NCBI GenBank assembly: GCA_006384855.1
Contig: VCJN01003570.1
Location: 1 to 64,000 of the forward strand
Length of the DNA: 64,000 nt
Reading direction: 5' to 3'
DNA from: Tetraselmis striata
Lineage: Eukaryota; Chlorophyta; Chlorodendrophyceae; Chlorodendrales; Chlorodendraceae
Numbering within the stretch: the stretch's first letter is position 1; every line of letters starts with the position of its first letter. Positions 5,380-29,592 of the stretch are shown here, in pieces. Position numbers and translations under genes: made by a program. The notes under the pieces were generated by a model that did no database searches, was not told where the DNA came from, and saw only the letters and a program-made list of their open reading frames with translations.

Positions 5380-6082
5380 TTGCGAGGCCACCTTTCGGTG
5401 ACCGCCGCAAGACGCACCCTTGCAGCACAACGACGAGATGAGCGCCCTGTGTCAGGACCTGACCCCCCCACCTTACAGACTTCCTTTAGACCTTCCTCGG
5501 TGCGGCGCTTCTTACAGCTACAGCCGAGTGCGGCTCAACCATCCGCACACCTGCACATGGCGGCTCAACCAACCGCTTTTCTTACCACCCCATCTCTGCG
5601 TCCGTCGGTTGTTACACTACGTGTCACAACTGGTTCGCAACGACCAAGTTTCGCGCGTGTACGTTATGCACGGGACAAGCGCTACGAGCGCGAAGGGCGC
5701 GCGGGGCGGCCCTCTTACCTGAACCTAGCCCCGCAAACCCGTACTGAAGCTACTGCAAACCCGTCCAGCATCTACCGGCCAACCGCCGGGAACCTAACCG
5801 CTGCTGCCGAGTACTTTGCGAACAGTAGTCGTACCGGTGGAACTCTGTTGGTAAAACGACGCACGTACGTAATTGACGAGCCCGCAGCTGTCGCGCCGTG
5901 GGCTGCGTCACTGCGATCCCGGCTGCAGGACGCGATCGGCTCGGACGAGCTGGGCCAGCGAACGCTCGACCTGCTCTCCAGCTCCATCAGCGCTCAGACA
6001 CTCAAGAGCTACGCCGGCAGACTGTCTCAGTTCGCGGAGTTCTGCCACGACTCTGAAAACATCAGTCCGCTGGAGGCGACTA
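5380..6082 (+). pseudogene. N-terminal half of tyrosine recombinase, cut by CACTA insertion
   Basis: This open frame ends in a core-binding (SAM-like) domain of a tyrosine recombinase: SISAQTLKSYAGRLSQFAEF, then CHDSENISPLEATT. At 6083 the CACTA element starts and its TGTGA gives an immediate stop (6088-6090). The frame resumes exactly at 21492 on the far side once the transposon and one copy of the CTA duplication are left out. The upstream ~170 residues are basic and low in recognisable motifs. The first ATG of the frame is near 5557, and the true start is unclear. Confidence 0.8.
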
Positions 6083-6107
6083 CACTGTGAGATTCAGATG
6101 TGACGTA
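6083..6107 (+). repeat. Left terminal inverted repeat of CACTA element
   Basis: Starts CACTGTGAGATTCAG. It pairs with 21464-21488 with two mismatches. Flanked on the left by target duplication CTA (6080-6082). Confidence 0.95.
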
Positions 6108-6540
6108 AATGTGCCCTACTGGTGACGAACGACGACATACGGGGACGATACGGGACGGACGAGGGACGTGGATTTCATACCGAGTAGCGACGACTATCGC
6201 GCGCGACCTGTAAAGTACTATATGAATTTCTCGTTTCCATAATTTCATCAAATTGATATGCGCACGCGGGCTCGCGTGTCGCCCGCCGACGCGGAGCACC
6301 CGGGCTAAGTACAGGCGGCTGCACGTGCTCGCTGCACATCGCCGCACATCGCTGCACACCGCGGGGTCGCTGGCGTCGCAGTGCGTCACGCTGGCGGGCC
6401 GCGCCCCCGGCCCCTGCCAAGGAGTAATCACGATAAGTACTGGCACGGCCGACTCTCGCACAGCAATGGTGCTTAGTTCGCGCGAAGCGTTGCGGCACAG
6501 CATGCATGTGCCGGCAGGGTGCCGGGGGTGCTTGGCAAAC

Positions 6541-6571
6541 CATGATCGCAGGCTGCCGGCATGCGATCATG
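6541..6571. repeat. Short perfect hairpin in left subterminal region
   Basis: CATGATCGCA (6541-6550) and TGCGATCATG (6562-6571) form a perfect 10-bp inverted repeat with an 11-nt loop, inside the left part of the CACTA element. Confidence 0.7.
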
Positions 6572-6726
6572 GCTTGCGTGGCAGTCACGGCGGAGGTGTG
6601 GCCGGTGTCGCGGAGGCGCTTTTATTACATTGCTGGGCATCACTTCGCCGTTGTGGGCGGTGCCCACCACAAAACAGCTCCTGCCTAATGTTCTATACAT
6701 ATGAAATTCAGACTTTAGGGGGGCGG

Positions 6727-7445
6727 CTAGGGCACCTTCGTGAGGTCTGCCACAGTTGGAAGCCGCGCCAAGTGTTCCCTGGAAGCTGTGAGGATACTGT
6801 GCCTCCTTGGGCTTACCGTTGGGAAATACCCCTCGCGCCACTTATGAATGGGTTCCGTGTGCGCAAGCCTTGGCGGGGAAGTCGCGGTCCACGTCAAAGG
6901 GGCATAGGGGAGGAAAGACCCGACGTGATGCGTGCTCCCGGGGATTGCCGCTATGTCTGTCTCCCACTTGTGGGCTTCCTTTGTGATGTCGGACAAGAAC
7001 CGGCTGAATCTGTCCGTCTGAATCCATGTGTGGGTGAGGGCTTCTTGCACCACGCGTGCGGTCAGCCGCATGAGTTGGAACAGCGGGAACTGCTCCGCGT
7101 GGGCCCCAGCGAGGAGAGGCTCCATAGCCATGTCGTCATCGTTCTCGACGAGTACAGCGGCCTGCTTCGCAGCGATCTCGAGCATATCCTCGGCGCCTTG
7201 CAGCCACACCGAATCCGAACCGCGGAGGTATTTGAGACGCGTATCAGCGTCGACGATGTCCCCGTCCAGATCGGGCTGATCAAGCAGGAAGAGCTTGTAC
7301 TAGGCGAGCGCGTCCGCGCCGACATCCAACAAAGTGTGCCAGTGCCAAGCGTGGCGCAGGGAGCGGTAGAGGGCCGGGTTGCTGGACTGGGTGGGAGTCC
7401 AGCCGCCGGGGAGATGGATGTATTCCCCTCTCATGTCCTCGTCGG
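6727..7445 (-). pseudogene. Unrecognised minus-strand ORF inside CACTA element, one nonsense codon
   Basis: Read on the minus strand from about 7445, the frame gives a protein-like sequence (EYIHLPGGWTPTQSSNPALY; SVWLQGAEDMLEIAAKQAAV; RFSRFLSDITKEAHKWETDI) with a stop at 6727-6729 and one in-frame TAG at 7302-7300. Composition is balanced, unlike the overlapping plus-strand frame (6253-7704), which is Arg/Gly/Cys rich and looks like a shadow. I do not recognise the family. It could be the last exon(s) of a cargo gene of the transposon with its 5' part unresolved upstream, or a decayed passenger. Confidence 0.45.
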
Positions 7446-7449
7446 TGAG

Positions 7450-8216
7450 TTATTTTGTAGCGTGTTCTCCTCCACGCTCGCGTATGCTAGTTGGGTGCGT
7501 GTACAGCGCTCCACCATCCTGGCCCTTTTCTGGGGTGTAATCGATAGTGCCATGGTGGGTGGTGCAACTGGTGACCCTTCGTCGCCTCTTGTGATTGATA
7601 TCCTTGCGAAGCAGGCGGCGTCGCGCGTCCGTACCGTCGCGGCGCTGCTGCGCGATATACATATCGGGGAGTGGGCAAGTGATGCCGTCGCTAGGTGCGC
7701 GTGAACATAAAGATAAGCGGCGATATACACCCGATATTAGCCCGGTGTATTGACGCTTATTTGCGTAGTCGCAGCGCGAGTAGTAGTACGATGTATCGGT
7801 GCAGTCCCGGGCGCGCGCCCCCACGACGTGTGCGCGCGCGATGTGCGGCACGTTGTGTGCGGCGATGTGCGGCACGTTGTGCGTCACGTTGTGTGCGGAG
7901 ATGTGCGGCACGACTGACGGAGGTGTGGGCGGATGTAGGTGGTCCGGTAGCTTAGGTGGCTGGTAGGCGGTAGGTGGTGTTCGTAGGTGCGCGTTTTAAT
8001 GAAGCCGCCCTAACTGCTGATGATTGTGTAACGCCCCAGCACGCGCATGAAGTACGGGGTCGCCTCACGGTCACCGCCGCTCACCGCTGAATCAAGCGCG
8101 GACAGTCGCGCACTCGCATCTGTGCTCCCTGCCGGTGGTGGGCTACATCCACCCCAACTCTCAACCCCCCTCCCCCCCCCCCCCCCCCCCCCCCCCGCGC
8201 GCGCGCGGCAGCAGGC
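7450..8216. other. Region upstream of transposase, no clear gene
   Basis: Short GC-rich tandem pieces of GATGTGCGGCACGTTGTG repeat at about 7840-7912. A C-run of about 25 (with one T) lies just before the transposase start (8166-8196), followed by a GCGCGCGCG stretch. No supported coding sequence. Confidence 0.5.
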
Positions 8217-11200
8217 ATGCCGGGAGAGGGATGGATATCGAGTGTGTCGAAGGATGGCGTGTACGCATGCAAGCACTGCGAGGGCATCGTGGCGGGCAGT
8301 AGTGAAAGGACGGCGCGAGACCGACACTTCCGAAAATTCCCGAAGTGTAGGCACTCGTTGAAGCGTGCGGCTAAGTTGCGCCGCAAGGCCGCCTTACAAC
8401 AAGCAGCAGCAGCAGCGGCAGCAGCAGCAGCAGCAGCGGCAGCGGCAGGGGCGGCAGCAGGAGTAGCTGCAGCCGTCGGAAACGCCCCGCCGGCGCCGGT
8501 CTCGGAGGACGATGTGATGGGCGTGGGGGAGGACCCCGTTGGCGAAGACGGTATGGACATCGACGCGCCTGCGTGGCCGCCGGCGGGCGTGGAAGCCGCC
8601 GATGAGGGCGTGATACGGGAAGGCGATCCCGGTGACTTCTACATGAAGGTCATCGCCAAGAAGTTCCGGGGAGTATGGCACTACGGCGTGATAACCGGCG
8701 TTGTTACCGAGTGCGTGTTGGAGGACTACGGCGGGGCGACACAGTGGCGCGCTGTTTTCGAGGACGGTGACACTGTGGACCTTCTGCGTTCAGAGGTGAG
8801 TGAGCCCGGCCTGTGTGCTGGTGGCACCACTCACCTGCGGTTGTATGGAATCACACGCACCCGCCCGGTCGGCGTGGCAGGTTGTGGAGGCTATGGCGGC
8901 TGCTCAGGAGCACCCCCCTGTGGATGCGGACGGGGAGGCTCGCCTGGTAACCGTCTCTGAAGGCGATGACCAGTCCAGTGAATCCGAAGAGGAGGGCTGG
9001 GAAGGGGGGGGGGACGCGGCTGGCGCCGGGTGGACGAGCGATGAGGAGGAGGAGGAGGAGGAGGCGCACCTCCGGGCGTGGGAGTCTGCGGCTGTGCCGG
9101 GGTCCGACACGAATGCCCTCACGTTTGCAGTCATGAAGTGCTCGGCTCAGGTGAAGAGCAAGAATTCCAACAACTCCGCTGACAGCGAGTGGCAGCTGTT
9201 GCATGACATCATGCCCGCCGGCTTCACCTGGGGCGGGATGGCCGTGCCACGCAGCCACAAGGCGATGCGGAAGTTCCTGCGGGTACGGCCGGGATGTGCC
9301 TGGGTGCGTGCTTGACGCGGCGCGTCTTGGGGTGTCAGGCCCCTCACGCTCCTCGCCTCCCGATGCATGCATGTGCCTGATACATCCAGATATGTCCGGC
9401 ACATGTGCCCCAAGGGGTGCGTGGCGTTCAGCGGGGCGCCCGGGAAGGCTGCCGAATGGGCGAACCTCCCCGACCAGCACTGCCCGGAGTGCAATGCCGA
9501 TAGGTTTATCCGCACGCCGCAGTCCCTGAAGCTCACGGCTGCACGGGTTTGGTACGTCTTGAGCGTGGTGGACATCATCAAGGGCTGGTTCCGAGACCCT
9601 GTGTGGTACGCTTGCTGGAAGAAGGGGACGGACGTGTCTATCAACGCCTTCCGCGACTCGTCGGAGGCGGAGCGCCTGAATGAAGGCGGGCACGGCACCG
9701 GCCTCGCCGCGGGAGACTTCCTCCATGCCGACAACGGGATCTACACACTCACAGATGATGGCTTCCTGTCGCACCTTCGGGCCACCCAGTCTGTCACCGG
9801 GGTTGGGATTAGATGTGAGGACATGCCGCCCCACATGCTGACCTCCAGGAGCAACTGGCACCCAGTCGCACTCATCGGGCCCCCGGAGCCGCCCAACCTG
9901 GGCAAAATACTGTTAGAGGTGCTGCACGAGCTCGCGGTGCTTGGCGAGCATGGAGTGACGGTCACCCCCGCAGACGGGGGGGAACAATTCGTGCACAAGG
10001 TCTTCCTCGGTACGTGGGTGTGCGACGCCCAAGGCAGACGAAAGATCTTTATGCGGGGGGGGGGCTAGCCAGCTTAGAGGTTGCCCCTGGTGCCGTTTGC
10101 GGAGCCATGTGGAGGGCCCGGACGGCACGGTGAAGGTGGCGCCTGCGGGGTATGCAAAGGACGTCATCCAGAGGGTGAATGGCGTAGAGTACCAGGCTGT
10201 GCGCACAGGCACGAGCTGCCTCCTGCTCTCCGGCGACCAGATGCTGGAGCAGATGGGCGTCATCGGCCAGATAGAGGAGGACTTGGCCAAGTCGGCCCTT
10301 GATTGGGATGAGGTCGGCGAAGTGAGCCCCGCTGCCCGGCGTGCGTTCAACACAACCCGGCTGGAGCAGGCCAAGCAGAACACTGGCTGCCATGGCGTGT
10401 GCCAGGTGCCTGTGGTCCTGGGCTATGTCAGCATGGTCAACCTCTTCCCCCTCGCGCCGGACCACCTGTGCTTTTTGGGCTTGGGAAAGGACTTTTGGAG
10501 GAACTTCCTCGACGTGCTGGGCCACGTTGGATTTCGGGCTATGAAGCAAGAAGACCGGCGCAAGGCTTTAGTCCTGATACCCAGCAACTTTGGACGCGGG
10601 TTGCGCCCTTCGTTTGCGGTGTCCAAGAAGTCGAAAGGTAAGCGCCCCCCCCCCCCCCCCCCCCCCCCATGGGCGTGGGCGGCGTGGGCGGGCGCGGGGG
10701 CGTGACGGCATTCCCCTTCATGAATGCAGGGTCAGGCAAGGTGACGGTGCTGTCCGGCTGGGTCATCGAGGACTGCTGGCACCACTCGGAAACGTTTTCC
10801 CTTCTTACCGCCGGTCCGCTGTTCGAGGAGGCCCGGGTGAAGGCAATCATGACCGGGAAGGAGCTCGCGTCCCTAGCGGTGATGCGTGCGGTGTCGCAGC
10901 TGGGGGTGCTTGGGCACATGTACAAGCGCCTGCAAGGAGCTGTGTGGTTCGTCACGCGGTGGGGGTTGCAGAACGTGGTGACGGAGGAGGACGGCCCTGA
11001 GCGCAAGGCGCAGGTGGACGCGCTCACCAGGGAGGGGAGGACTCGATACCTAGCGGACATCACCGTGTATGCCCGCCTGGCTGAGGGAAACGGCTTCGTG
11101 TCGCTCCTCGTCTCCAACTTGCACTCGGCGGTGTGCCGCATGATCCACCAGATGCTGGCTTGCGGGCACCCCCTTGCGGAGCTGTGGATGGAGAACCTCA

Positions 11201-12311
11201 TGGGCTTCTTGAAGGCGGGCGCCAAGCGCGTGCTGCCGAAGAATGTCTGCGAGACCATGATGAGGGACCTCCTTTTCGCGCAGCAGATCAACCGCCTGAA
11301 GGCGCATCGCCTCTACCGGGAACCCAACCCCAACAAGAAGGTCTCTCCCCCCCCCCCCCCCCCCCCCCGGCCTCTTGCTGCCTCCTCAGCCACGTGCACC
11401 CATACCCACCCACCCACCCACACACACACATACACTCACACTCGCACTCACAGCGACCCACCCACACACACAGGGGTACATGGCCCCAGACGACGCAGGC
11501 CCCGGCGCCGTGGAGACGCCCATCCGGTTGGTTGGGAGCGCATCCGCTGCGTGGGAGCACGCGGTGGACTTCAAGGACCATTTGGAGAAGCTGCTGGACG
11601 ACGTCCGACGTACGGTGCAGGGCTCGCACTCGTATGCACCCATACTCGCGGGGTGGGGTGCGGTCCTGCCGGGCTGGAGCCCCAGCGGTGGCGCTGGGGG
11701 GCTCCTGGCCTACAAGGCGGCGTCGCTTCGCAACGGCGACAAGCCCCGGCTTCACCGGGGGGGGGGAAGACGGGGAGACGTCGAGAGACAACTCCTTCTT
11801 TGTGTACAAGATGTTGAAGCAAGTCCCCGACGCCGACCCACCCCCCTACACCACCGAGGAGCTGGAGAGCGAGGAGGAGCTGCCAAGAAACCTGCTGGCG
11901 GAGCGCGAAGACGCCAAGTACACCACCATGGTCGCGCGAGCTCAACACTTCTACCTTGCCACGCCACCGCCCCCGCCAGGGGCTGACTCGGACGACAGCC
12001 GTGGCAGCGCGCGGCCCATTCGGGCTGCATTGTGTACGGTGTGGACGCCGGAACGAGCCCACACTGCCGTGGGCTTGGACTTGTGGAGAGTGCCGGGCGG
12101 CGGCGGTGGATCCGGCGGGGAGGAGGCCCTTGTCCTACTAGATGGTCCGGGCATCCGCAAGGTGGCTGTTCTCATGGCCCCTGCCGACATGTCCTCCGCG
12201 AAGGCTGCCGACTTGGGCGTCGACGCCGGGGAGCTGCTGGTGGCGGGGATCCACGCAAGATCGCAGGACGGTGCGCGAGGGGGGGGGGGGGGGGCAGCGG
12301 CTGTGGGATAG
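8217..12311 (+). CDS. CACTA transposase (Tnp2-like), multi-exon, one apparent frameshift
   Basis: Exon 1 (8217-8795) has a Cys/His motif (CKHC...RHFRKFPKCRH), an alanine run and a Tudor/agenet-like module (FRGVWHYGVITG...WRAVFEDGDTVDLL). Exon 2 (8881 to about 9282) is acidic. Exon 3 (about 9390-10009) opens with CPKGCVAF...CPEC, the Cys motif of Tnp2 (Transposase_21) proteins, and holds NWHPVALIGPPEPPNL. Exon 4 (10080-10637) begins GCPWCRLRSHVEGP, equivalent to the conserved C-x-x-C of Tnp2. Exon 5 (10730-11340) has NLHSAVCRMIHQMLACGHPL...ENLMGFLK, like the DUF4218 tail of plant CACTA transposases. Exon 6 starts at 11474. Phases of introns 8796-8880, 10010-10079, 10638-10729 and 11341-11473 all fit. 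The exon 2/3 junction does not resolve. A run of 10 G at about 11758-11767 separates two frames that together give the C-terminus, so a 1-2 base length change is likely. Stop at 12309-12311. Confidence 0.85.
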
Positions 12312-12400
12312 GCGGCGCAGCGGTTGCTACCGAGTGAGGCTTAGCGTCGTTTGCAGTAGCAAGGCAGCCTTTCCGGTTGCATAGTGTGACGCCGCCTGGA

Positions 12401-12405
12401 TGTAA
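12401..12405 (+). terminator. TGTAA polyadenylation signal of transposase gene
   Basis: TGTAA about 90 bp after the stop codon, the poly(A) signal form of green algae. It lies about 30 bp from the opposing signal of the convergent gene. Confidence 0.6.
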
Positions 12406-12432
12406 CCCAGCAGTACGCGCAAAGTGCAAGTG

Positions 12433-12437
12433 TTACA
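12433..12437 (-). terminator. TGTAA polyadenylation signal of convergent minus gene
   Basis: Plus-strand TTACA, that is TGTAA on the minus strand, about 38 bp after the stop of the 13383-12475 gene. Confidence 0.6.
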
Positions 12438-12474
12438 CGCCCGTGTGCCCCACCCAATGACATTGCGCCCGACC

Positions 12475-13383
12475 TCACTGACGGCATGTCTCGCTCTCCT
12501 TCATCTCCTGGGCCGTCCGCCGCCTCACCCTGCGCACCCTACCAGCCGCGCGTGCCTTCTCGGAAGCCTCAGACACGGCGGCGCGAGTCGCGTCGTGGAA
12601 CGCGTCCCTGGCATGGCGGAACTCCGCTCTCACCGCGGCCGTGGTCGGGCAGGGGACTGCCCGCTGATGGGTCGCCATGCATGGGTACTTGGGGCCGCAC
12701 AAAGCTGGGGTGCCGTCGCAGCAACACTCCCAGTCCGTCCGTCGGCCGCAGTACACGCATGACGGGCGTCCGGCCAGGACACGCACATGATAGTGCATGT
12801 GGCCGCCTCCCGCCACTGCTCGTAGTGCTCCGGTCAACATGGCGACGAGCAAGTCCGCATGTCCCGCAGGTGGCTGCGGGGCGGGTGGCGCGAGCGCAGC
12901 CTCGCTCGCCTCGACAACCCCCTCATCCCTATCAGTCGCCTCTACCACGGCCTCCTCCGCCTCCTGATGCGGCGCATCAGGCGCATCGTCGTCGCCTGGC
13001 AGGGCGTCCCCCCCCGCAACGGCGCCGTCGGCGGTGGCCGACGCCGTCGTGGCGGGGTGCTGTGAGGAGGTGGCCCTAGACATAGGTGGGGCCGGCACCG
13101 CCATGTGTTGCTCCACATGCGGTGCGGTTGCGGTTGCGGTGCGGTTCCTGACGCGACAGCTCCGTCGCACAGGTACCGGCACCGGCACCCCACGCCTGCT
13201 GCGCTTACCACCAACCGGCATGTTTCCTTTGGGAGGCGGTTCATCCGCGTCGGAGGTGAGCGGCGGTGCCGGTGTGGGTGTGGATACTGCGCGGCCATTA
13301 GGGCTCCCGCCGCCCGCCGCTCCGCCGACCCACGCCGCGGCGTGTGCTGCGCCCCGCATAGTCGCCTCGAATATATTATACAT
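12475..13383 (-). CDS. CACTA cargo protein with putative C-terminal zinc ribbon
   Basis: An uninterrupted 302-residue frame from ATG 13383. The N-terminal part is low complexity with a basic patch (GGKRSRRGVPV; a likely nuclear signal) and an acidic middle (EAEEAVVEATDRDEG). The C-terminal third has a Cys/His array: CVYCGRRTDWECCCDG...LCGPKYPCMATHQ, reminiscent of the Zn ribbon at the end of piggyBac-type transposases (C..C, C..C, C, H), followed by a basic helical tail. It is convergent with the transposase, and their TGTAA signals lie 30 bp apart, which supports both genes. Probably an accessory DNA-binding protein such as the TnpA-like partner CACTA elements often carry. The function is inferred only. 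Confidence 0.6.
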   Translation of the reverse strand: MYNIFEATMRGAAHAAAWVGGAAGGGSPNGRAVSTPTPAPPLTSDADEPPPKGNMPVGGKRSRRGVPVPVPVRRSCRVRNRTATATAPHVEQHMAVPAPPMSRATSSQHPATTASATADGAVAGGDALPGDDDAPDAPHQEAEEAVVEATDRDEGVVEASEAALAPPAPQPPAGHADLLVAMLTGALRAVAGGGHMHYHVRVLAGRPSCVYCGRRTDWECCCDGTPALCGPKYPCMATHQRAVPCPTTAAVRAEFRHARDAFHDATRAAVSEASEKARAAGRVRRVRRRTAQEMKESETCRQ

Positions 13384-13963
13384 GACGCGGGGACGGGGGG
13401 GGGGGGGGGGGGGGAGTCGTGCGTTTCGTATATCGGCGGAACGGCGTGCGAAGCTGCGGCTGGCGAAGGTGGTGGAAGTAAGCGTGGCGGCGTCGGCGGC
13501 GTATTACCGTGCGTGCATGCGTGCGCAACCCGGCGGCAGCAAGCGCCGGACTCGGCGTGTGCCGGCGGCAGAGCAACGAAGCCATGGACACGGTACGGGA
13601 TGCCAAGTTTGGCTAAGCAACTGCCGAGGCTGGCGGCTTAACCCCCATGTCCGGCGGCTGAGGGACGGAAAGTGCGTAGAAGTTGATCGGCAAAGCGGGC
13701 ATATAAGCCTGGCTGTGCTAGGTTCCTATTAAGTAATGGCGGTTTGTGCTAAGTAATTCGTAGGGGTGGACCATGCAGCGCAGGTAGGGGGCGGTATAAA
13801 TGAGGCCGGGCACATATACTGCTCCACGAAACGACACTGTCGCACGTGTACTTGAATAGACCCCCCCCCCCCCCCCCCCCCCCCCACCCCCCGCCGGGTG
13901 GGCCCGCCGACCCGCCACGGCATGTAATATGTGTCATGCATCGCCGGGGTATGTGTGAGTGGA

Positions 13964-13999
<36 letters not shown>

Positions 14000-14090
14000 A
14001 TTTACACTTGTGCACTCATTAAGTTTGGGCTGGTTTCGGAGCAGTACATGTACGTATGTATATACATACAATAATGGAACGTATGTAGGA
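13384..14090. other. Spacer with three G/C runs and a TATA-like site
   Basis: G- and C-runs at about 13397-13414, 13861-13885 and 13967-13999. GGTATAAATGAG at about 13791-13802 is TATA-like on the plus strand, but no gene starts clearly downstream. The translated frames are homopolymeric and not credible. Confidence 0.4.
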
Positions 14091-15810
14091 CTTGCGCGGA
14101 AAGAGGCGGGGCTGGCGGAGTGCGTTGGGGGTGCGTAGAGTAGCGTGTTGGTGAGATTCGGGGTGCATCGGACGCCGGATGCCCACCCACCCGGCGTAAA
14201 AGACGCGTAATATTCACACTATATTAACACACAAATGTGTGAAAACCGGACATTCCGTGCCGGATGGATGGGAATACGGCGTCCGATGCAGCCAAAACCC
14301 CAGGGACACGCTATTCTATGCACCGCCAATGCACTCCGCCAGCACCGCCTCATTCTCTGTCGATTTCGAAAACGCCTTCACATTATCCACCGCTAATTGC
14401 AATTGCCACCGTGTAATGTTGTCACGATGTGCGCACACAACAACACTTACTACCGGTTCCGACGCGGATGGAGGCGGTGCTTGCGGAGTGCATTGGCGGT
14501 GCACAGACTAGTGTGCTGCAAATAATTGGGGTGCATCGGACGCCGGATGCCCATCCACCCGGCGTAAAAGACGCGTAATAATATTCACACTATATTAACA
14601 CACAAATGTGTGAAAACCGGACATTCCGTGCCGGATGGATGGGAATACGGCGTCCGATGCAGCCAAATCCCCAGGGACACGCTATTCTATGCACCGCCAA
14701 TGCACTCCGCCAGCACCGCCTCATTCTCTGTCGATTTCGAAAACGCCTTCACATTATCCACCGCTAATTGCAATTGCCACCGTGTAATGTTGTCACGATG
14801 TGCGCACACAACAACACTTACTACCGGTTCCGACGCGGATGGAGGCGGGGCTTGCGGAGTGCACTGGCGGTGCACAGACTAGTGTGCTGCAAATAATTGG
14901 GGTGCATCGGACGCCGGATGCCCATCCACCCGGCGTAAAAGACGCGTAATATTCACACTATATTAACACACAAATGTGTGAAAACCGGACATTCCGTGCC
15001 GGATGGATGGGAATACGGCGTCCGATGCAGCCAAAACCCCAGGAACACGCTATTCTATGCACCGCCAATGCACTCCGCCAGCACCGCCTCATTCTCTGTC
15101 GATTTCGAAAACGCCCTCACATTATCCACCGCTAATTGCAATTGCCACCGTGTAATGTTGTCACGATGTGCGCACACAACAACACTTACTACCGGTTCCG
15201 ACGCGGATGGAGGCGGTGCTTGCGGAGTGCATTGGCGGTGCACAGACTAGTGTGCTGCAAATAATTGGGGTGCATCGGACGCCGGATGCCCATCCACCCG
15301 GCGTAAAAGACGCGTAATAATATTCACACTATATTAACACACATATGTGTGAAAACCGGACATTCCGTGCCGGATGGATGGGAATACGGCGTCCGATGCA
15401 GCCAAAACCCCAGGAACACGCTAATCTATGCACCGCCAATGCACTCCGCCAGCACCGCCTCATTCTCTGTCGATTTCGAAAACGCCTTCACATTATCCAC
15501 CGCTAATTGCAATTGCCACCGTGTAATGTTGTCACGATGTGCGCACACAACAACACTTACTACCGGTTCCGACGCGGATGGAGGCGGTGCTTGCGGAGTG
15601 CACTGGCGGTGCACAGACTAGTGTGCTGCAAATAATTGGGGTGCATCGGACGCCGGATGCCCATCCACCCGGCGTAAAAGACGCGTAATATTCACAGTAT
15701 ATTAACACACAGATGTGTGAAAACCGGACATTCCGTGCCGGATGGATGGGAATACGGCGTCTGATGCAGCCAAGCAAAACCCCGGGGACACGCTATTCTA
15801 TGCACCCATA
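14090..15810. repeat. 368/371-bp tandem array with internal inverted repeat (about 4.5 units)
   Basis: Units begin TGCATCGGACGCCGGATG at 14164, 14532, 14903, 15271 and 15642, giving periods of 368, 371, 368 and 371. The 3-bp alternation comes from GTAATATTC versus GTAATAATATTC. A diverged partial unit precedes (about 14090-14163), and the fifth unit is partial. In each unit the first ~32 bp are inverted about 95 bp later (for example 14164-14195 against 14259-14290), around an AT-rich core with ACACAAATGTGT. Units are nearly identical, implying recent amplification. The 90-residue ORF repeated in each copy is likely chance. Confidence 0.9.
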
Positions 15811-16221
15811 CCGCCAATGCACTCCATCCGCAACCCCCGCCTCATTCCCAGTCGTACGTGCTTGTGCACACGCACGGAATGCTTGCACTGCTCCGAAACC
15901 ACTGTCACATACCCCGCTCATTGGGTACCGATTGCGGCGCATGCACGGCTAGATAGTTGTTTACATAAACCCGGGGGGGGGGGGGGGGGCACAGCAGTGT
16001 CCCGCTACTCAACCTGCATTGGATTAGGGCGACGATTGCAAACAAGACGAGGAGGCGCGCATGAACTGCTCCGAAACCACGCGATGTGCCCGGTGACCTC
16101 CATATCCAGCACGTGCACCGATGCAAGTAATAAGGACAGGACCCCCCCCCCCCCCCCCCCCGCCAAAGTGGAGGAAGTGTAGGAGTACAACCGGAGCATG
16201 CCGTGTTCCATTGTCGCTTAT
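15811..16221. other. Spacer between tandem array and protease/dioxygenase gene
   Basis: G-run near 15973-15989 and C-run near 16141-16161. CACGCGGAATGC...CTGCTCCGAAACCAC occurs twice (about 15892-15903 and 16069-16080). No gene is seen. Confidence 0.4.
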
Positions 16222-16226
16222 TTACA
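16222..16226 (-). terminator. TGTAA polyadenylation signal of Ulp1/dioxygenase gene
   Basis: Plus-strand TTACA, TGTAA on the minus strand, about 31 bp after the stop at 16257-16259. Confidence 0.6.
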
Positions 16227-16256
16227 AGCACGGGCGGTGCTGCCAGACCCGATCGT

Positions 16257-19200
16257 CTACGGCGGGATGGAGGCGGCAGCGGCAGGAGCAGGAGCCGCAG
16301 CCTCAGCAACAAGCCGCAGCTCCTTCGCTCTCGCATGGATGCTGGCGTAGTCCTCGTCACTGTACAAATGGTTTGGCAACACAGCATGTTCCCCAAAGTG
16401 GGCCACATACTGCGCCGCCAACTCGTGGTTGCGTTTCTCCGCAGCATCACTGCGGGGGGTGATGTGTGGGTACAGTGCCTCGTTGTAGGCTACCAGGAAC
16501 GGCGTGTACTGGGTAGGGTCGTCCGCACGGCCGCAGCCAGGCAGTCCCAGAAGGTGCCCCTGCCCGTACAAGCGGACATTGCCACGCCCCTGACACTTGA
16601 GACAGGGTTTACCGCCGGGCTTATCAACTGGGGCGCCCGCGGGCCCGCGGTGCGTCGTGTCCGACCCAAACATGTACCCATGGTATTGTTCCATGTAGGG
16701 CTTGTTCTCCTCGGGGACACCCATGCCACGCTCCAAGTCCTCCAGGGGCTGCATCAAGTTCTTGTGGCTCGTGATGAAGTTGGCAGCTCCCGGATCTGTC
16801 TCCGCCAGCGTCCTCTCCGTGAGGCGGTGATTCTCGTGGCCCTTTTCATGTCAACACATGGATGGCACTCAGTCCCCGCCCCCGCCCCCGCTCCCGCCAC
16901 CGGCGTGGGGGGGGGGGGGGGGGGGGGGGCGCACCCGGTACCGAATGTGCTTCACGGCATCTGTGAAGCTCACTTCTGGCCCGCGGTACACCTCAGTGGG
17001 GCGGCAGTGGCACGTGCATGCAAGGATGGCCTGCAGATTTGGAGCCTGCCCATCAATGTGGGTGATCTGAGCGGGGGCATTCGCCGGGGTGAACAGCAAC
17101 GCGATCACCGGCCACGACCAAAACCCTGGTGCTAGCTCGCCGGCCTTCTCGGCACCAGCCACGAAAGCGCGCCGCAATTCCAGCAAGGCGGCAAACAAGG
17201 CCTTCCTGCAAGGCACACGCTCAGAATAAGCGACGCACGGGTCAGGGGTTGAAGGGAGCCGGGGGGGGGGGGGGGGGGGGGCACCTCTTCATCTGATTCG
17301 GCCTTTTGCCGACCAAGGTCTCTGGCGCACTCCTTGCCCAATGCCACAGCTTCCACGGGTCGACTTTGCCCTCCTTTTCACCGACGTACGGCATCACCTG
17401 CGTGTGCTCCGCAATGTCCAACATGTCTTCCGGGGGCAGGATGACCTGTCGGTGTCAGGGGCACACACACGTCAAGCCAAGGCGGGCATCGGCAGCAGCA
17501 AGGCATCATGTTTATAGGGGGGGGGGGGGGTTGCACCTGGATGCGCCCGCCCTGAATGCCAAAGCCCATTTCGTCCCATTGCTTGCTTGGCATGTCGACC
17601 AGACACTCCATCGCCATCTCCAGCAAGGTCTTCTGGGCGTCACTCAGGTCCAACTTAAACGGCGTGGGCTGGCCCGATTGCAACTGCTTGTTGCCGATGA
17701 AACGCGCCCGCAGGGCTTGGCTGGGAGATATCAGCTCCATTGGGGTGCCGCATTCATGCACGGCGGGTGGCACGCTCGAAGAACCTCCCGCTCCTTTCAG
17801 CCTCTTGGTAGACTTGCGCCACTTAACAGCTTCAACCGCCACGCACCGTTTGCACTTCGAGGTACGCCGATTGCCGCCGGCGGTATTGAACGCGGCCGCT
17901 GCAAAGAACACACCATCTGGAGCATGGAGGACGCCCGTGCATCCCTTCAGGCGAACCTCATCTACCCGCCTCACCGCCCGCTCCGGTGCTTTCCCCGCGG
18001 CCGCCTCCTGCTGGATGAGGCTTGACGGATCCTGGTTCAGGACTGTTTCCACTAGCGCCACTGTCGCCCCCATGGAGACAGACTTCCAGCCTCGCACCTG
18101 CGGGTTGCATGGCCCACGCACGCGCTCACCCCCCACTGTGTGTCAGCGCTGCATGCTACTTGCCAAGTGCTGCATGCCAAGAGGTAGGGGCGGGGGGGCG
18201 GACCTGGGCAATGCGCCTTGCAGCCCAGGGCGTGAACGGTCGCAGGCCATCCTCGGGCTTGCCCACCCGCGCACACAAGTCCATGGGGACGATGTCCGTG
18301 TCAGTAGGAGCACGGATGACGCCGTCCTGGGCACTCCGTTGCTGCACAACGTTGTTGCGAAAGCTTTCCAGGGCTTCCGTGCTGAATTCTCTGCACGTCC
18401 CCGCGCTCAACAGCGCAGCGCGACGCTCGTCCTCGGGCTTCAACTTCAGCAAGCAGTAGATGAAGAACAGCACCCGCCACCCGCAGGTCCAAATGTCATC
18501 TTGTCGCTGGTCCACCGCCACGGGGATAGTGCGAGCCTCCGCCTCCGCTACTCTCAGGAGGTGTGTCACGTTCTCCCAGCACAAGCCGGCACGCACCCCC
18601 GGATCAGGCGACTTCATCATCATCCGGGTCACGAACTCACGGAACATGGACATGATCAGCCTGTGCTGCGAGTTGGGTTTCTTTCATCATCGAGTCGAAG
18701 ACTAGGGGCCCGGTTTCCGCAGCGTCCACCACCAAGGCAGTGAGGTGGATGGAGACACAGACCGGAATCACGAAGGTGCGCACGTCCGATAAGGGCTGGG
18801 CCGCCGGGGGAGGGTTCTGGAAGCAACGGGCCCGCCGGAAGGCTGCCTGCTGTGCTCGCACGTCCATCTCCCACTGCCCAATGCTATCGCCCTCTCCCAA
18901 CAACTTCCTGCGCAGATAGGCCTCGTTCCCGGACACCATGCTCAGAACCACGACGTTTGTACTCCCTTCCGCTCCGCCGCGTCCTTCGCTGAACCCAACC
19001 AGGTCTCGTGCGATGTGCGACAACAAACCCACCTCTAGCAGCCCGGGAGCGTTCAGTTCCGGGTCTGACGTCGGGGCCACATCAGGGAACTTTCTCAGCA
19101 AGGCATCCGCGGCGTCTTCTCCGAGAAGCCTCCACAGCTCCAGGCGTACGGGGTCATAGGTACCACCATCCTGTAGCCACCGCTCGAGGTAGGCTTGCAA

Positions 19201-19257
19201 CCTCGTCGTCGCATCTTCCTCAGCGAGGAGCTCGGGGGAATTAACACTGTTTGACAT
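16257..19257 (-). CDS. Ulp1-type cysteine protease fused to a putative 2OG-Fe(II) dioxygenase domain (CACTA cargo)
   Basis: Six exons on the minus strand: 19257-18641, 18552-18204, 18097-17537, 17445-17285, 17205-16935, 16841-16257. All five introns have GT-AG ends, phases match, and lengths sum to 2,544 nt, or 847 residues plus stop. N-terminal protease: His171 in VSIHLTALVVD, Asp188 in PLVFDSM, Gln221/223 and Cys229 in DQRQDDIWTCGWRVLFFIY, the H-D-Q-C order of C48/Ulp1 peptidases that cut SUMO-like proteins. The middle (exon 3) has KCKRC and HEC. The C-terminal part has H612-x-D614 in AQITHIDGQ, then TEVYRGP, and H717 in YMFGSDTTHRGPAG, the HxD...H iron-binding pattern of 2-oxoglutarate dioxygenases, followed by C-x-x-C. 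Ulp1 domains are common in DNA transposons. The fused dioxygenase-like part is unusual, and its assignment rests on motif spacing only. Three introns start with a C-run within a few bases of the donor. Confidence 0.8.
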
Positions 19258-19694
19258 GGCGGCAGGTTTATGGGGGGGGGGGGGGGGGGGGGGGTCTTGG
19301 GTGCCCACGCACGGGGATTTGCGGCGCTGGGTGGAGCGGCGGACACTCACCCGTTCCGCCTCTACATGTCGTGCACACCGCTGCTGCACACCGCTGCCGC
19401 ACACCGGTGCGCATATTCGTCGCGCACATATACACGCGCGCCCTACCGCATATATTATCCCGGATTCACTCGGTGAAACCACGTATTCAAAACGCCGTGC
19501 TGCTTCAACAATATACACTGCGAAATTACCCCGACACAATGCCGCACCGACTAGCCCTTCACATGCATACCAGTAGTAGTGGCGCGCTGCTCCTCGCCTC
19601 CGCTGTGTCGTTGACTGCCCCGGAAGGCGGTGTTAGTTTCTCCACCTCGCCCCCCCCCCCCCCCCCCCCCCCCGCTTTCACCGCTCACAGCGCC
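19258..19694. promoter_or_regulatory. Divergent intergenic region between two CACTA cargo genes
   Basis: 437 bp separate the minus-strand protease gene from the plus-strand gene at 19695. It holds a G-run (about 19272-19293) just upstream of the minus-strand ATG and a C-run (about 19650-19671) just upstream of the plus-strand ATG, plus an AT-richer centre (CGCATATATTATCC near 19448). It probably acts as a shared bidirectional promoter, inferred from layout. Confidence 0.4.
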
Positions 19695-20857
19695 ATGGCA
19701 GACCTCGTCTCCCGGGCAAAAGCCATCGTTATCACAAAGAAAACCCGTGCAGAGGTGCCCTTATGCCTGGTGTTCGCGGCGCAGTCCGTGGAGACAATGG
19801 TTGCCCACGCGGCAAAGTCGCAACCAGCAGATCTGCGGGTCTACCCCTCAGAAGACGACGCCAGGAAGGGTTCCTGGGGCGCACCTCTGCAGGAGTTTGC
19901 AGCCCGGCTTAGGAACCAATCCGGCGGGGGGCCGCTGCGACAACAACTCGAGGCCGCGCAGTATACGCTGCCAGAGGGGGTGCTGGCCTTCTATGTCACG
20001 CCCGCAGATCGCACCGGCATCACGGACCCCTCCAGCGCTGCTGGGGCTGCCTCGTCCTCCTCGACAAGGTCGCGCGCCAGCACCGACACCATCACTGTCA
20101 TGCGTGCAGAGATCCAGGCCGTATGGCCACGAGATGATGACGACGTGTACTTGCCGGTGCAAGGTGCGTTGGGCGAGGTTGTTGCCCCTGACTGGGCGGC
20201 GGGCCTTGTTGTCTCGCGTGTCCGCGCCGCCGGCATCGAGGAGGACGAGAAAGACATGAGGAAACGCGTGACAAGGTGGGCACGCAACAAAACACTCCAC
20301 CCACCACATAAGCACGCACCTACTCGTGGCTAACTTGTGCCGCGCGCAGGTTCGTCCGGGAGCGCCGTAAGGCCCACCTAAACGCCAAGGCTTCCACAGT
20401 GCCAGCGGCGCAACTCGTGGTGGCCGAGGAGGCCGCGTCCTCAGCCGCATGGAGGCGAAACTATTGTGGCTTGTTGTGGGCGTCCGGGCACAGGGGGCGT
20501 CCCGACGCCAAGGCAAAGAAGCTCATGGCGGCGGCGTCGGCACAGCCTCCCGTGGTGGTGAAGACACTGACGGCCACCGTTCTCCCTCCGGACGCGCCGC
20601 TGCCCCGCCCACCCCTAACTGAGAAGGAGCTGTGCTGGATGAACGCCGCCGACAAGAAGCAGTCGGACGCCGACAAGAAGCGGAAGAGGCCAGTGGAGAA
20701 GCGCCCAGGTAAGAAATTGACGGTCGCGGAGTCGGAGGCGGAGTCGGAGGCGCAGGCGCAGGCGGAGTCGGAGGCGGAGGCGGAGGCGGAGGCGGAGGCA
20801 GCGAGGTCGTCGAAGCGGCGGGTCCCCCGGGCACGCAAGAACAAGAACAAGCAGTAG
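19695..20857 (+). CDS. CACTA cargo protein, lysine-rich with Ala/Glu repeat tail
   Basis: Two exons, 19695-20275 and 20350-20857, joined by a 74-bp intron (GTGGGC...GCGCAG) whose phase fits, give 362 residues. The start ATG sits in GCCATGG. The N-terminal part (LVSRAKAIVITKKTRAEVPL) is compact and globular-looking. Exon 2 starts FVRERRKAHLNAKA and ends with a run of E-A-E-S/E-A dipeptides and a basic tail RRVPRARKNKNKQ, a likely nuclear signal. I do not recognise a domain. Position next to the right end suggests an accessory transposition or chromatin-binding protein. TGTAA follows at 20934. Confidence 0.6.
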
Positions 20858-21463
20858 CTTCCCCCCCCCTCCCCTCACCCCCCCCCCCCCCCCCTCCCGG
20901 GCCACATTCCCCGATGGCAGCTGTCGCGAATATTGTAATTCAAACATTCTTCGGCAAACCGCTGCCTGCCCCCGCCCCCCCCCCTCGCGAATATTTATGT
21001 AACGTGAGCACTCTTTGGCAAAACATGGCAGCCAAACCTCCCATCTGATGACCTTTGATCGGACGGCTGGCAGGCCCGTTCAGCAGTACTAGCTATAATG
21101 TACACAAAATTCTCCAGTGTTACCAAATACGTATGGCTGCGATTTGCGCTCCCATGTACTAATAGTCGTAGTTATCCACAGGACGACTCGTCATCGTGCC
21201 CGGGTTCGTATTAGATACCCGGTACCGGCTCAATAATATATCGCGTACTATCCGGTACTACACGGACAACCTTGTACCTTATACGTCAGTGCCATGTAAC
21301 AATTCACCGGGCTAGTACGACTACCAGAATGATGACAAAAAGGATTTATCGCCCGCCGGCATTAACGCCGGATGTACTCGCACGTAACTGGATGGACGTG
21401 CCGCCACCAGCAGCAGCCTTCACTGATAAATAATAGTCGCTAGTAGTAGTGCTTCGTCACCCG
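20858..21463. other. Right subterminal region of CACTA element
   Basis: Non-coding. C-runs at about 20863-20894, TGTAA at 20934-20938 and again near 20997, then lower-GC sequence to the right inverted repeat. The AT-richer tail has AATAATAGTCGCTAGTAGTAG next to the terminus. Confidence 0.5.
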
Positions 21464-21488
21464 TATGTCACACCTGAATCTCACAGTG
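21464..21488 (-). repeat. Right terminal inverted repeat of CACTA element
   Basis: The reverse complement begins CACTGTGAGATTCAG. Flanked on the right by CTA (21489-21491). Confidence 0.95.
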
Positions 21489-22417
21489 CTACCGCTACTA
21501 CTGTCGTTCGGTATGTTGCCTGGATCGGGGAGCGAGGGCACATCGCAGCTAAGTCGCTGCAACCCTACTTGTCAGCAATCAACACGTTCCTCGAGCTGCA
21601 CAACCTCGTCCCAATCGCCAAGGACAGTCTGCACCTAACTTCAGCAAGGCGTGGGCTGATGCTGCGTCAGCGCCGGCTGGACGCTGCCCCTTTGCGTGTC
21701 CCTCTGCCTGCGGATGTAGCCTATCGCTTCGTCACAAAAGCCGAGCTAATTGTGTCTGCTCCTTACCCATAGTACCACCTCGACTTCCGAGCTCTCTTGG
21801 CCTCGGTTGTCAACTTCATGTTCTTTGCCAGGGGCCTTACTGGCGTCTCCTGTCGAATGCGAGATGTGCATGTCGACACCTACAACTTCACCTTGCAAGT
21901 GTACCGCGAGAAGGGTCGCGCTGGCCGACGGGGACCCGACGACATGTGCGTACTTCTCCTTCCGGTGTCCGAGCACCCTCGAGTGGCACGTCTTTTGCAC
22001 CACTTCATCGACAACGTCCAATCTGCCCCCCTGGTTACTGTTGGCTTGGCTGCATCAAACTTCTGGGCTGTCACTACGGCCGAGCAGTCAAAACCTTGGA
22101 CTGCGGCTACAATGTCATACTGGATGTCTGCAGTCATCAGTCTAGTCAATGCTGCCCCCCCTGCTGGCACTTCCTGGACTTCACACAGTCTTCGCAAGGG
22201 CGCAGCCTCTGCAGCGAATGCCATCGGAGTGCCATTGTCCCAGATTCGCTACCAAGGCGGTTGGGCCACTAACTCTGACGTCGTTCTGGACTACATCGAC
22301 CCCAACGTTCTTCCTTCACCTGGCGCATGGTTCTTCTTTGGACACATCGCCCCCCTCCGCCACTTCCAAGTCCAACATGACTCCGCAGCGGTGGCCTTCC
22401 CAGTGCCTCCTTCATGA
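21489..22417 (+). pseudogene. C-terminal (catalytic) half of tyrosine recombinase
   Basis: This continues the core-binding domain (VVRYVAWIGERG; LQPYLSAINTFLELHNL) into a catalytic domain. Visible active-site elements: the first Arg in FFARGLTGVSCRMRDV, the beta-hairpin Lys region YREKGRAGRR, the H-x-x-R box SHSLRKGAAS, the GGW position (His/Trp), and the nucleophile Tyr in VVLDYIDP. This is the full set expected of a YR recombinase, so the fold was functional until recently. Two lesions exist: separation from its N-terminus by 15.4 kb, and an in-frame TAG at 21770-21772. Stop at 22415-22417. Repeat B1 starts about 55 bp later. Confidence 0.85.
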
Positions 22418-24384: not shown

Positions 24385-24898
24385 GCTCAACCCAAGAGGT
24401 AGGGGCACCTCCACAGATCCCCGGCGCGAAGCGCCGCTTAGTAGCCATCTGCTACTGATAGTCGCTATTTACGGCGGGTATATCAATTATGAATGAATAC
24501 CATATACGGGTACAGCCGGTACCAATCGCGCGCTACTGCGACCCCGCGCCCCGCCGCCGCCGCCCGGCCTCTATTTTTCGCCTGCCCGCTTCACGTTCCT
24601 ACTTCTGCTCGCGGCGCCACGAATAGCGACTACTCACTACTCAATACTCGGAGTCGCTATCTCGGAATACTCTGCTGGCGATACTCCGGCGCCGCGCCTG
24701 CCGCCACCGTTCGCTCCACTCGTATTCGCAGAGCAACAAGTGGCAAACGCCACCGGCGGTGGAAACTGGCTACGCAAGAGCAGGATCCACAGTGCTCTGG
24801 CCCGGGGGGCAGTCAAGTGCCTGAGCGTTCGAGGCAGTAGGTCCCGGCGTACTCGAGTACTCGTACGAGTACGTGGTGTACCGTTCCCGTAGTCGTAC
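24385..24898 (+). promoter_or_regulatory. Upstream region of the demethylase gene
   Basis: No gene. The sequence becomes GC-rich toward 24700-24800, and short ACTCGAGTACTCGTACGAGTACG palindromic runs lie just upstream of the start codon (about 24850-24873). Likely promoter and 5' UTR, inferred from position only. Confidence 0.4.

Positions 24899-29592
<4,694 letters not shown>

Follow-up and report, generated by a model that had tools for sequence, protein, structure and literature searches.

A Ulp1-like protease gene with a conserved C-terminal half, carried by a CACTA-like transposon of Tetraselmis striata

What does a predicted Ulp1-like protease do inside a DNA transposon, and what is the protein half to which it is joined? 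The question is raised by a minus-strand gene at positions 16257..19257 of the window, the whole stretch of 64,000 nucleotides analysed here, which opens one contig (VCJN01003570.1) in the 224 Mb, 2,903-contig genome of Tetraselmis striata. In keeping with a green algal host, the RuBisCO small subunit gave its strongest PDB matches to small subunits of which some are recognisably green algal. A preliminary description of this region proposed a six-exon gene, carried as transposon cargo, whose product fuses a Ulp1-like protease to a 2-oxoglutarate/Fe(II) oxygenase.

The gene does lie within a mobile element, as proposed. The element is CACTA-like, with 15-bp terminal inverted repeats (TIR), a CTA target site duplication (TSD) and a target frame that is restored when the element is taken out:

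6083..21488, no strand assigned: EnSpm/CACTA-like element of 15,406 bp, complete, with perfect 15-bp TIR and 3-bp TSD
6083..6097, plus strand: left TIR, CACTGTGAGATTCAG, with TSD CTA at 6080-6082
21474..21488, minus strand: right TIR, with TSD CTA at 21489-21491

The inverted repeats start with CACTG and, together with the 3-bp TSD, conform to the EnSpm/CACTA definition (TIR beginning CACTA or CACTG, TSD of 3 bp). The interrupted frame, which adjoins the element on both sides (left of 6080, right of 21491), is tyrosine-recombinase-like by reading of the sequence, and closes exactly, without a gap, when the flanks are joined without the element. It is perhaps part of another mobile element. Termini were located across the whole genome with a 29-base pattern of 24 fixed bases, allowing up to two mismatches, which gave 2,318 matches (1,214 forward and 1,104 reverse); the reversed pattern, used as a control, gave 0 matches in the genome. 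The TIRs, the TSD, the target frame restored on removal and the copy number of the termini are hallmarks of the EnSpm/CACTA superfamily. Facing termini among the matches listed are often about 8 kb apart (e.g., C9:45532-53768), half as far as in the window element, which suggests that shorter, probably non-autonomous derivatives are abundant in the genome. Beside the element, the plus-strand frames at about 24893-28067 may, by reading of a motif, form a JmjC-type histone demethylase gene.

The protease gene shares the element with several other features:

8217..12300 (approximate), plus strand: transposase-like gene of several exons, with Cys-rich CPKGC...CPEC, GCPWC and a HPLAELWMENLMGFLK region
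12475..13503, minus strand: open reading frame with a dense Cys/His cluster (CVYCGRRTDWECCCDG...CMATH)
14095..15806, no strand assigned: tandem repeat between genes, 4.6 copies of a 371-bp unit
19695..20857 (approximate), plus strand: second plus-strand gene, read from the sequence, with a repetitive charged tail

Judged by eye only, the HPLAELWMENLMGFLK region of the transposase-like gene may be an acidic end of the CACTA/Tnp2 type, and its GCPWC resembles, again by eye only, the C(2)C motif in the accessible part of Kojima 2025 (PMC12730594). No Tnp2-type or other transposase family in Pfam was matched by the assembled gene, some junctions of which were guessed, or by its pieces. The frame at 12475..13503 had no Pfam match above cut-off and possibly encodes a DNA-binding protein. 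The second plus-strand gene had no Pfam match, and Rfam gave 0 matches in the window. Runs of G or C are common across the element.

The six exons first proposed for the protease gene (minus strand; 19257-18641, 18552-18204, 18097-17537, 17445-17285, 17205-16935 and 16841-16257) can be rebuilt as a GT-AG model of 847 residues, the longest product among 300 splice combinations. The model fails at the first intron: the supposed intron 1 (18640-18553, minus strand) is coding sequence in other copies of the gene and was rejected. A search with the N-terminal part gave at least 188 matches, with 124 of 231 candidates scored, and the matches listed provided 55 paired copies, the window included (the pairing does not include rows C506 and C2204, one of the two C1470 rows, or 24 short rows). 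Both sides of the supposed intron lie in one frame in 48 of the 55, and the frame is broken in the other 7, the window copy among them. Where the first segment extends from residue 10 or earlier to residue 188 or later, 42 of 44 copies are in frame. The first exon is fully open and intron-free in L037, L039, L042, L044, L045, L046, L056, L057 and L060, and several further translated copies read through the same stretch. Since most copies are in frame, the window copy is taken to be damaged by a frame break at about 18,685, and the intact gene is predicted to encode about 876 residues in five exons (by summing the exon lengths):

18204..19257, minus strand: exon 1 (the former exons 1 and 2 with 'intron 1'), N-terminal region and Ulp1/C48-like protease domain; other copies read through
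17537..18097, minus strand: exon 2 (formerly exon 3), linker with no known domain; splice sites conserved in copies
17285..17445, minus strand: exon 3 (formerly exon 4); splice sites conserved in copies
16935..17205, minus strand: exon 4 (formerly exon 5), containing THIDG; splice sites conserved, no family match
16257..16841, minus strand: exon 5 (formerly exon 6), containing THRGP, CxxCxGxG and RLYG; splice sites conserved, no family match above cut-off

The four remaining introns were surveyed at 51 loci, each counted where the exon end was reached. In order along the gene, the donor is GT in 34/34, 30/31, 39/39 and 27/27 copies, and the acceptor is AG in 31/32, 35/39, 39/41 and 40/41, while the intron lengths fall into each of the three classes modulo 3. 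Exons 1-5 form one multi-exon gene structure that is conserved among copies; it probably gives a single transcript, the product of which would fuse the protease to the C-terminal half. Three introns of the gene show runs of roughly 14-22 C a few bases past the 5′ splice site, as read in the sequence:

about 17530-17517, 17281-17261 and 16929-16908, minus strand: intronic C runs

The arrangement recurs elsewhere in the genome. With the last two exons as query, 144 of 372 candidates were scored and at least 211 matches obtained. Of the 57 segments listed for the C-terminal part of the Ulp1 region, 48 are followed on their own strand by a listed last exon, no more than 3 kb downstream; the two halves therefore travel together. 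Relatives outside this genome were sought in viral contigs, genome contigs and phages by searches that reach close relatives only, and none was found.

The protease half can be recognised once its first exon is read continuously. The spliced 847-residue window model matches no Pfam family, and each of the residues singled out in it (H171, D188, Q221/Q223, C229, H612, D614 and H717) is at the position claimed. Eleven copies were picked for their open frames, two of them partial, and 9 of the 11 matched Pfam Peptidase_C48 at E values up to 10 (best E 1e-4); given these matches of the correctly read first exon, the Ulp1-like assignment is real. The one score shown, for L039, is 21.2 bits against a cut-off of 20.7, so that by the family's own cut-off, and by a small margin, the gene product is predicted to be a protease and a divergent member of C48. 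Five copies also matched Peptidase_C57, a viral processing peptidase family (best E 0.0016). The His-Asp-Gln-Cys site has the spacing of the family (H171, D188, Q251 and C257 in L039), its four residues do not vary in the aligned 11 copies, and the motif with this spacing occurs in 0.4% of 5,000 shuffles of the same protein. Profile-profile comparison with a Ulp1-like protease of the host and two human ones aligned the His/Asp region (E 0.034, probability 1.5%), and a search of the PDB with the Ulp1 alignment found nothing. The AlphaFold model of the Ulp1 exon has a mean pLDDT of 34.0.

Many copies have lost the protease. Its catalytic part is absent in 9 of 20 fetched copies, and in eight of those nine the first-exon match ends at residue 108; in L048, L051 and L055 the sequence continues from there into the intron at 17536-17446 (window numbering). 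At least 24 rows of the deleted kind occur among the matches listed, and in a tree of the last two exons (44 sequences) the deleted copies are not monophyletic.

Selection on the protein was gauged from the ratio of nonsynonymous to synonymous changes (N/S), with a neutral expectation taken from the mutation spectrum of the introns. Pooled dN/dS ratios among copies range from 0.71 to 1.76. In full-length copies the observed/expected N/S is 1.06 for the Ulp1 exon, 0.97 for the linker exon, 1.61 for exon 4 (19 N, 4 S) and 0.67 for the last exon, a mild constraint. For differences between subfamilies, the counts are 24 N and 7 S in the Ulp1 exon (1.10 of neutral) and 6 N and 2 S in the last exon (0.90). 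Amino-acid change among copies is near neutral, and purifying selection on amino acids is therefore not claimed. Stop codons are expected at about 0.035 per nonsynonymous change from the intron spectrum; in the non-deleted copies they number 5 per 625 amino-acid changes in the Ulp1 exon, 3 per 440 in the linker exon and 1 per 250 in the last exon, and are not clearly scarce in exons 3 and 4 (2/90 and 3/92). The scarcity is weak evidence, a lead rather than a test, because it does not extend clearly to exons 3 and 4, because protease-deleted copies are equally poor in stops (0 per 161 and 2 per 232 changes), and because a change that several copies inherited together counts more than once.

Ulp1 domains have precedents in DNA transposons, as the preliminary description stated, and CACTA elements are among these. 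In the accessible text of Benjak et al. 2008 (PMC2528002), ULP domains are described in five grapevine CACTA families (Cactavine-2, -3, -4, -5 and -13) and rice proteins are described with both Tnp2 and ULP1 domains. Those elements, compared by description only, are like the present one in being CACTA elements with a Ulp1/C48 domain. They differ, as far as that text goes, in that the rice proteins combine Tnp2 with ULP1, whereas the protease of the window element has a gene of its own, on the strand opposite the transposase-like gene, and in that this protease continues into a C-terminal half of unassigned fold. That transposons carry TET/JBP oxygenases also has published support: in the part of Kojima 2025 available (PMC12730594), TET/JBP dioxygenases are encoded by EnSpm elements of fungi. 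The fungal elements thus share with ours the superfamily and an accessory gene; their cargo is TET/JBP, with 'Ulp1' and 'SUMO' appearing 0 times in the text available, whereas no oxygenase family is recognised here. A third comparison, also by description, is with the VANDAL elements of Arabidopsis, whose VANC/KIU genes can bear a Ulp1 domain, and whose VANC-type proteins, some with that domain, reduce methylation of related copies according to the accessible part of a review (PMC13317346). These too are DNA transposons with an accessory protein that can carry Ulp1, and they work by anti-silencing, but belong to the MULE superfamily whereas the window element is CACTA-like. No report of a Ulp1-oxygenase fusion in a transposon was found among titles and abstract openings. 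Ulp1 is known cargo of CACTA elements, and the less ordinary arrangement is a protease spliced to a conserved half of unassigned fold.

The gene is probably an accessory gene of a high-copy EnSpm/CACTA-like transposon, with an N-terminal C48 protease and a C-terminal half, and we infer for it an anti-silencing or regulatory role. Anti-silencing would be the likeliest function, and is favoured because of the published precedents (ULP in CACTA, VANC in VANDAL and TET/JBP in fungal EnSpm elements), the nearest for such a role being the plant VANDAL elements with their VANC-type proteins. The protein would then act on the element's behalf, in anti-silencing or regulation, its protease stripping chromatin, silencing or transposition proteins at the element of SUMO or a related modifier, and its C-terminal half either aiming the protease or adding a second activity.

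Two readings would remove that function or the fusion itself. The gene may be useless to the element, decaying cargo of which the window copy is a pseudogene moved by the transposase of other copies, and the frame break in the window copy, the near-neutral N/S and the widespread internal deletion of the protease part are all consistent with this. Retained splice sites in nearly all copies argue against it, as does the unbroken frame through the supposed intron 1 in 48 of 55 copies; stops are also scarce in three of the five exons, though in deleted copies too. We regard decay as unlikely. It is very unlikely that two adjacent genes are present in place of a fusion, a Ulp1 gene (exon 1) followed by a separate downstream gene (exons 2-5). 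In favour of two genes, exon 1 left unspliced reaches a stop about 45 bases further on in the window frame, but the conserved protein sequence stops at the donor, by reading of the copies, and the exon 1/2 junction keeps its GT (34/34) and AG (31/32) across an intron whose length is free modulo 3.

The nature of the C-terminal half is the harder matter. The preliminary description made it a 2-oxoglutarate/Fe(II) oxygenase (HxD...H...R), which would couple de-SUMOylation to oxidation of DNA, RNA or histones; this was not borne out, nor was it refuted. The HxD...H triad and a distal Arg are present, and in copies outside the deleted group they are well kept (H612 in 34/35, D614 in 35/35, H717 in 34/35 and the RLYG arginine in 35/35). 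The order and context of THIDG, TEVY, FGSDTTHRGP and RLYG presumably resemble strands II, VII and VIII of a double-stranded beta-helix, which we count for the oxygenase. TET/JBP genes in fungal EnSpm elements, as described in the part of PMC12730594 seen, favour it as well. The candidate metal ligands are nevertheless not distinctive, because nearly every position is equally conserved (mean column conservation 0.966-0.972), and among the 9 deleted copies Tyr replaces the first His in two and His replaces the Asp in one. The pattern HxD-(38-128)-H-(7-27)-R occurs in 61% of 5,000 shuffles of the same protein and a stricter form with H[RKSTA]G in 4.8%, at or near chance. No oxygenase family was matched in Pfam, NCBIfam, PHROGs or the PDB, and the few weak matches of this half were all to other families; the linker of exon 2 had no Pfam match. 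Tet_JBP and 2OG-FeII_Oxy_6 were not matched in the alga's own genome, a weak absence, as control genomes gave none either. The AlphaFold model of the L006 frame, which covers most of the C-terminal half (19 splice-junction residues replaced by 4, C-terminal end missing), has a mean pLDDT of 32.7 and is unusable; neither model counts as evidence, because the Ulp1 exon, which passes its family cut-off, failed equally. An oxygenase is thus possible but doubtful, and the fuller proposal of a divergent 2-oxoglutarate oxygenase, giving a transposon-borne Ulp1-oxygenase fusion that would act on SUMO-type marks and by base or histone oxidation, is judged rather improbable.

The CxxCxGxG and CTCHC motifs offer a putative zinc-binding module as a fair alternative to the oxygenase. 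In that case the C-terminal half would be a DNA- or protein-binding module that aims the protease at the element, its zinc held by CTCHC (exon 4), the DnaJ-like CxxCxGxG (exon 5) and nearby His. Both cysteines of CLKC are present in 35/35 copies outside the deleted group and in 9/9 deleted ones, and VANC proteins recognise short DNA motifs, according to the available part of PMC13317346. One copy resembles Anti-TRAP over CxxCxGxG, weakly (E 0.096, 13.1 bits), but this is far under the cut-off of 32 and was seen in 1 of 4 sequences, and the number and spacing of Cys and His fit no family known to us. The module is put forward as a tentative reading.

If the accessory gene does act in anti-silencing, T. 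striata would hold a natural experiment within one genome, in which methylation and mobility could be compared between classes of copies, namely the 48 with the protease stretch in frame and the at least 24 rows that end near residue 108. If the second domain is an oxygenase, a single protein would combine two anti-silencing chemistries known from different transposons, and this Ulp1-oxygenase fusion would sit in a family of over two thousand termini in a single algal genome.
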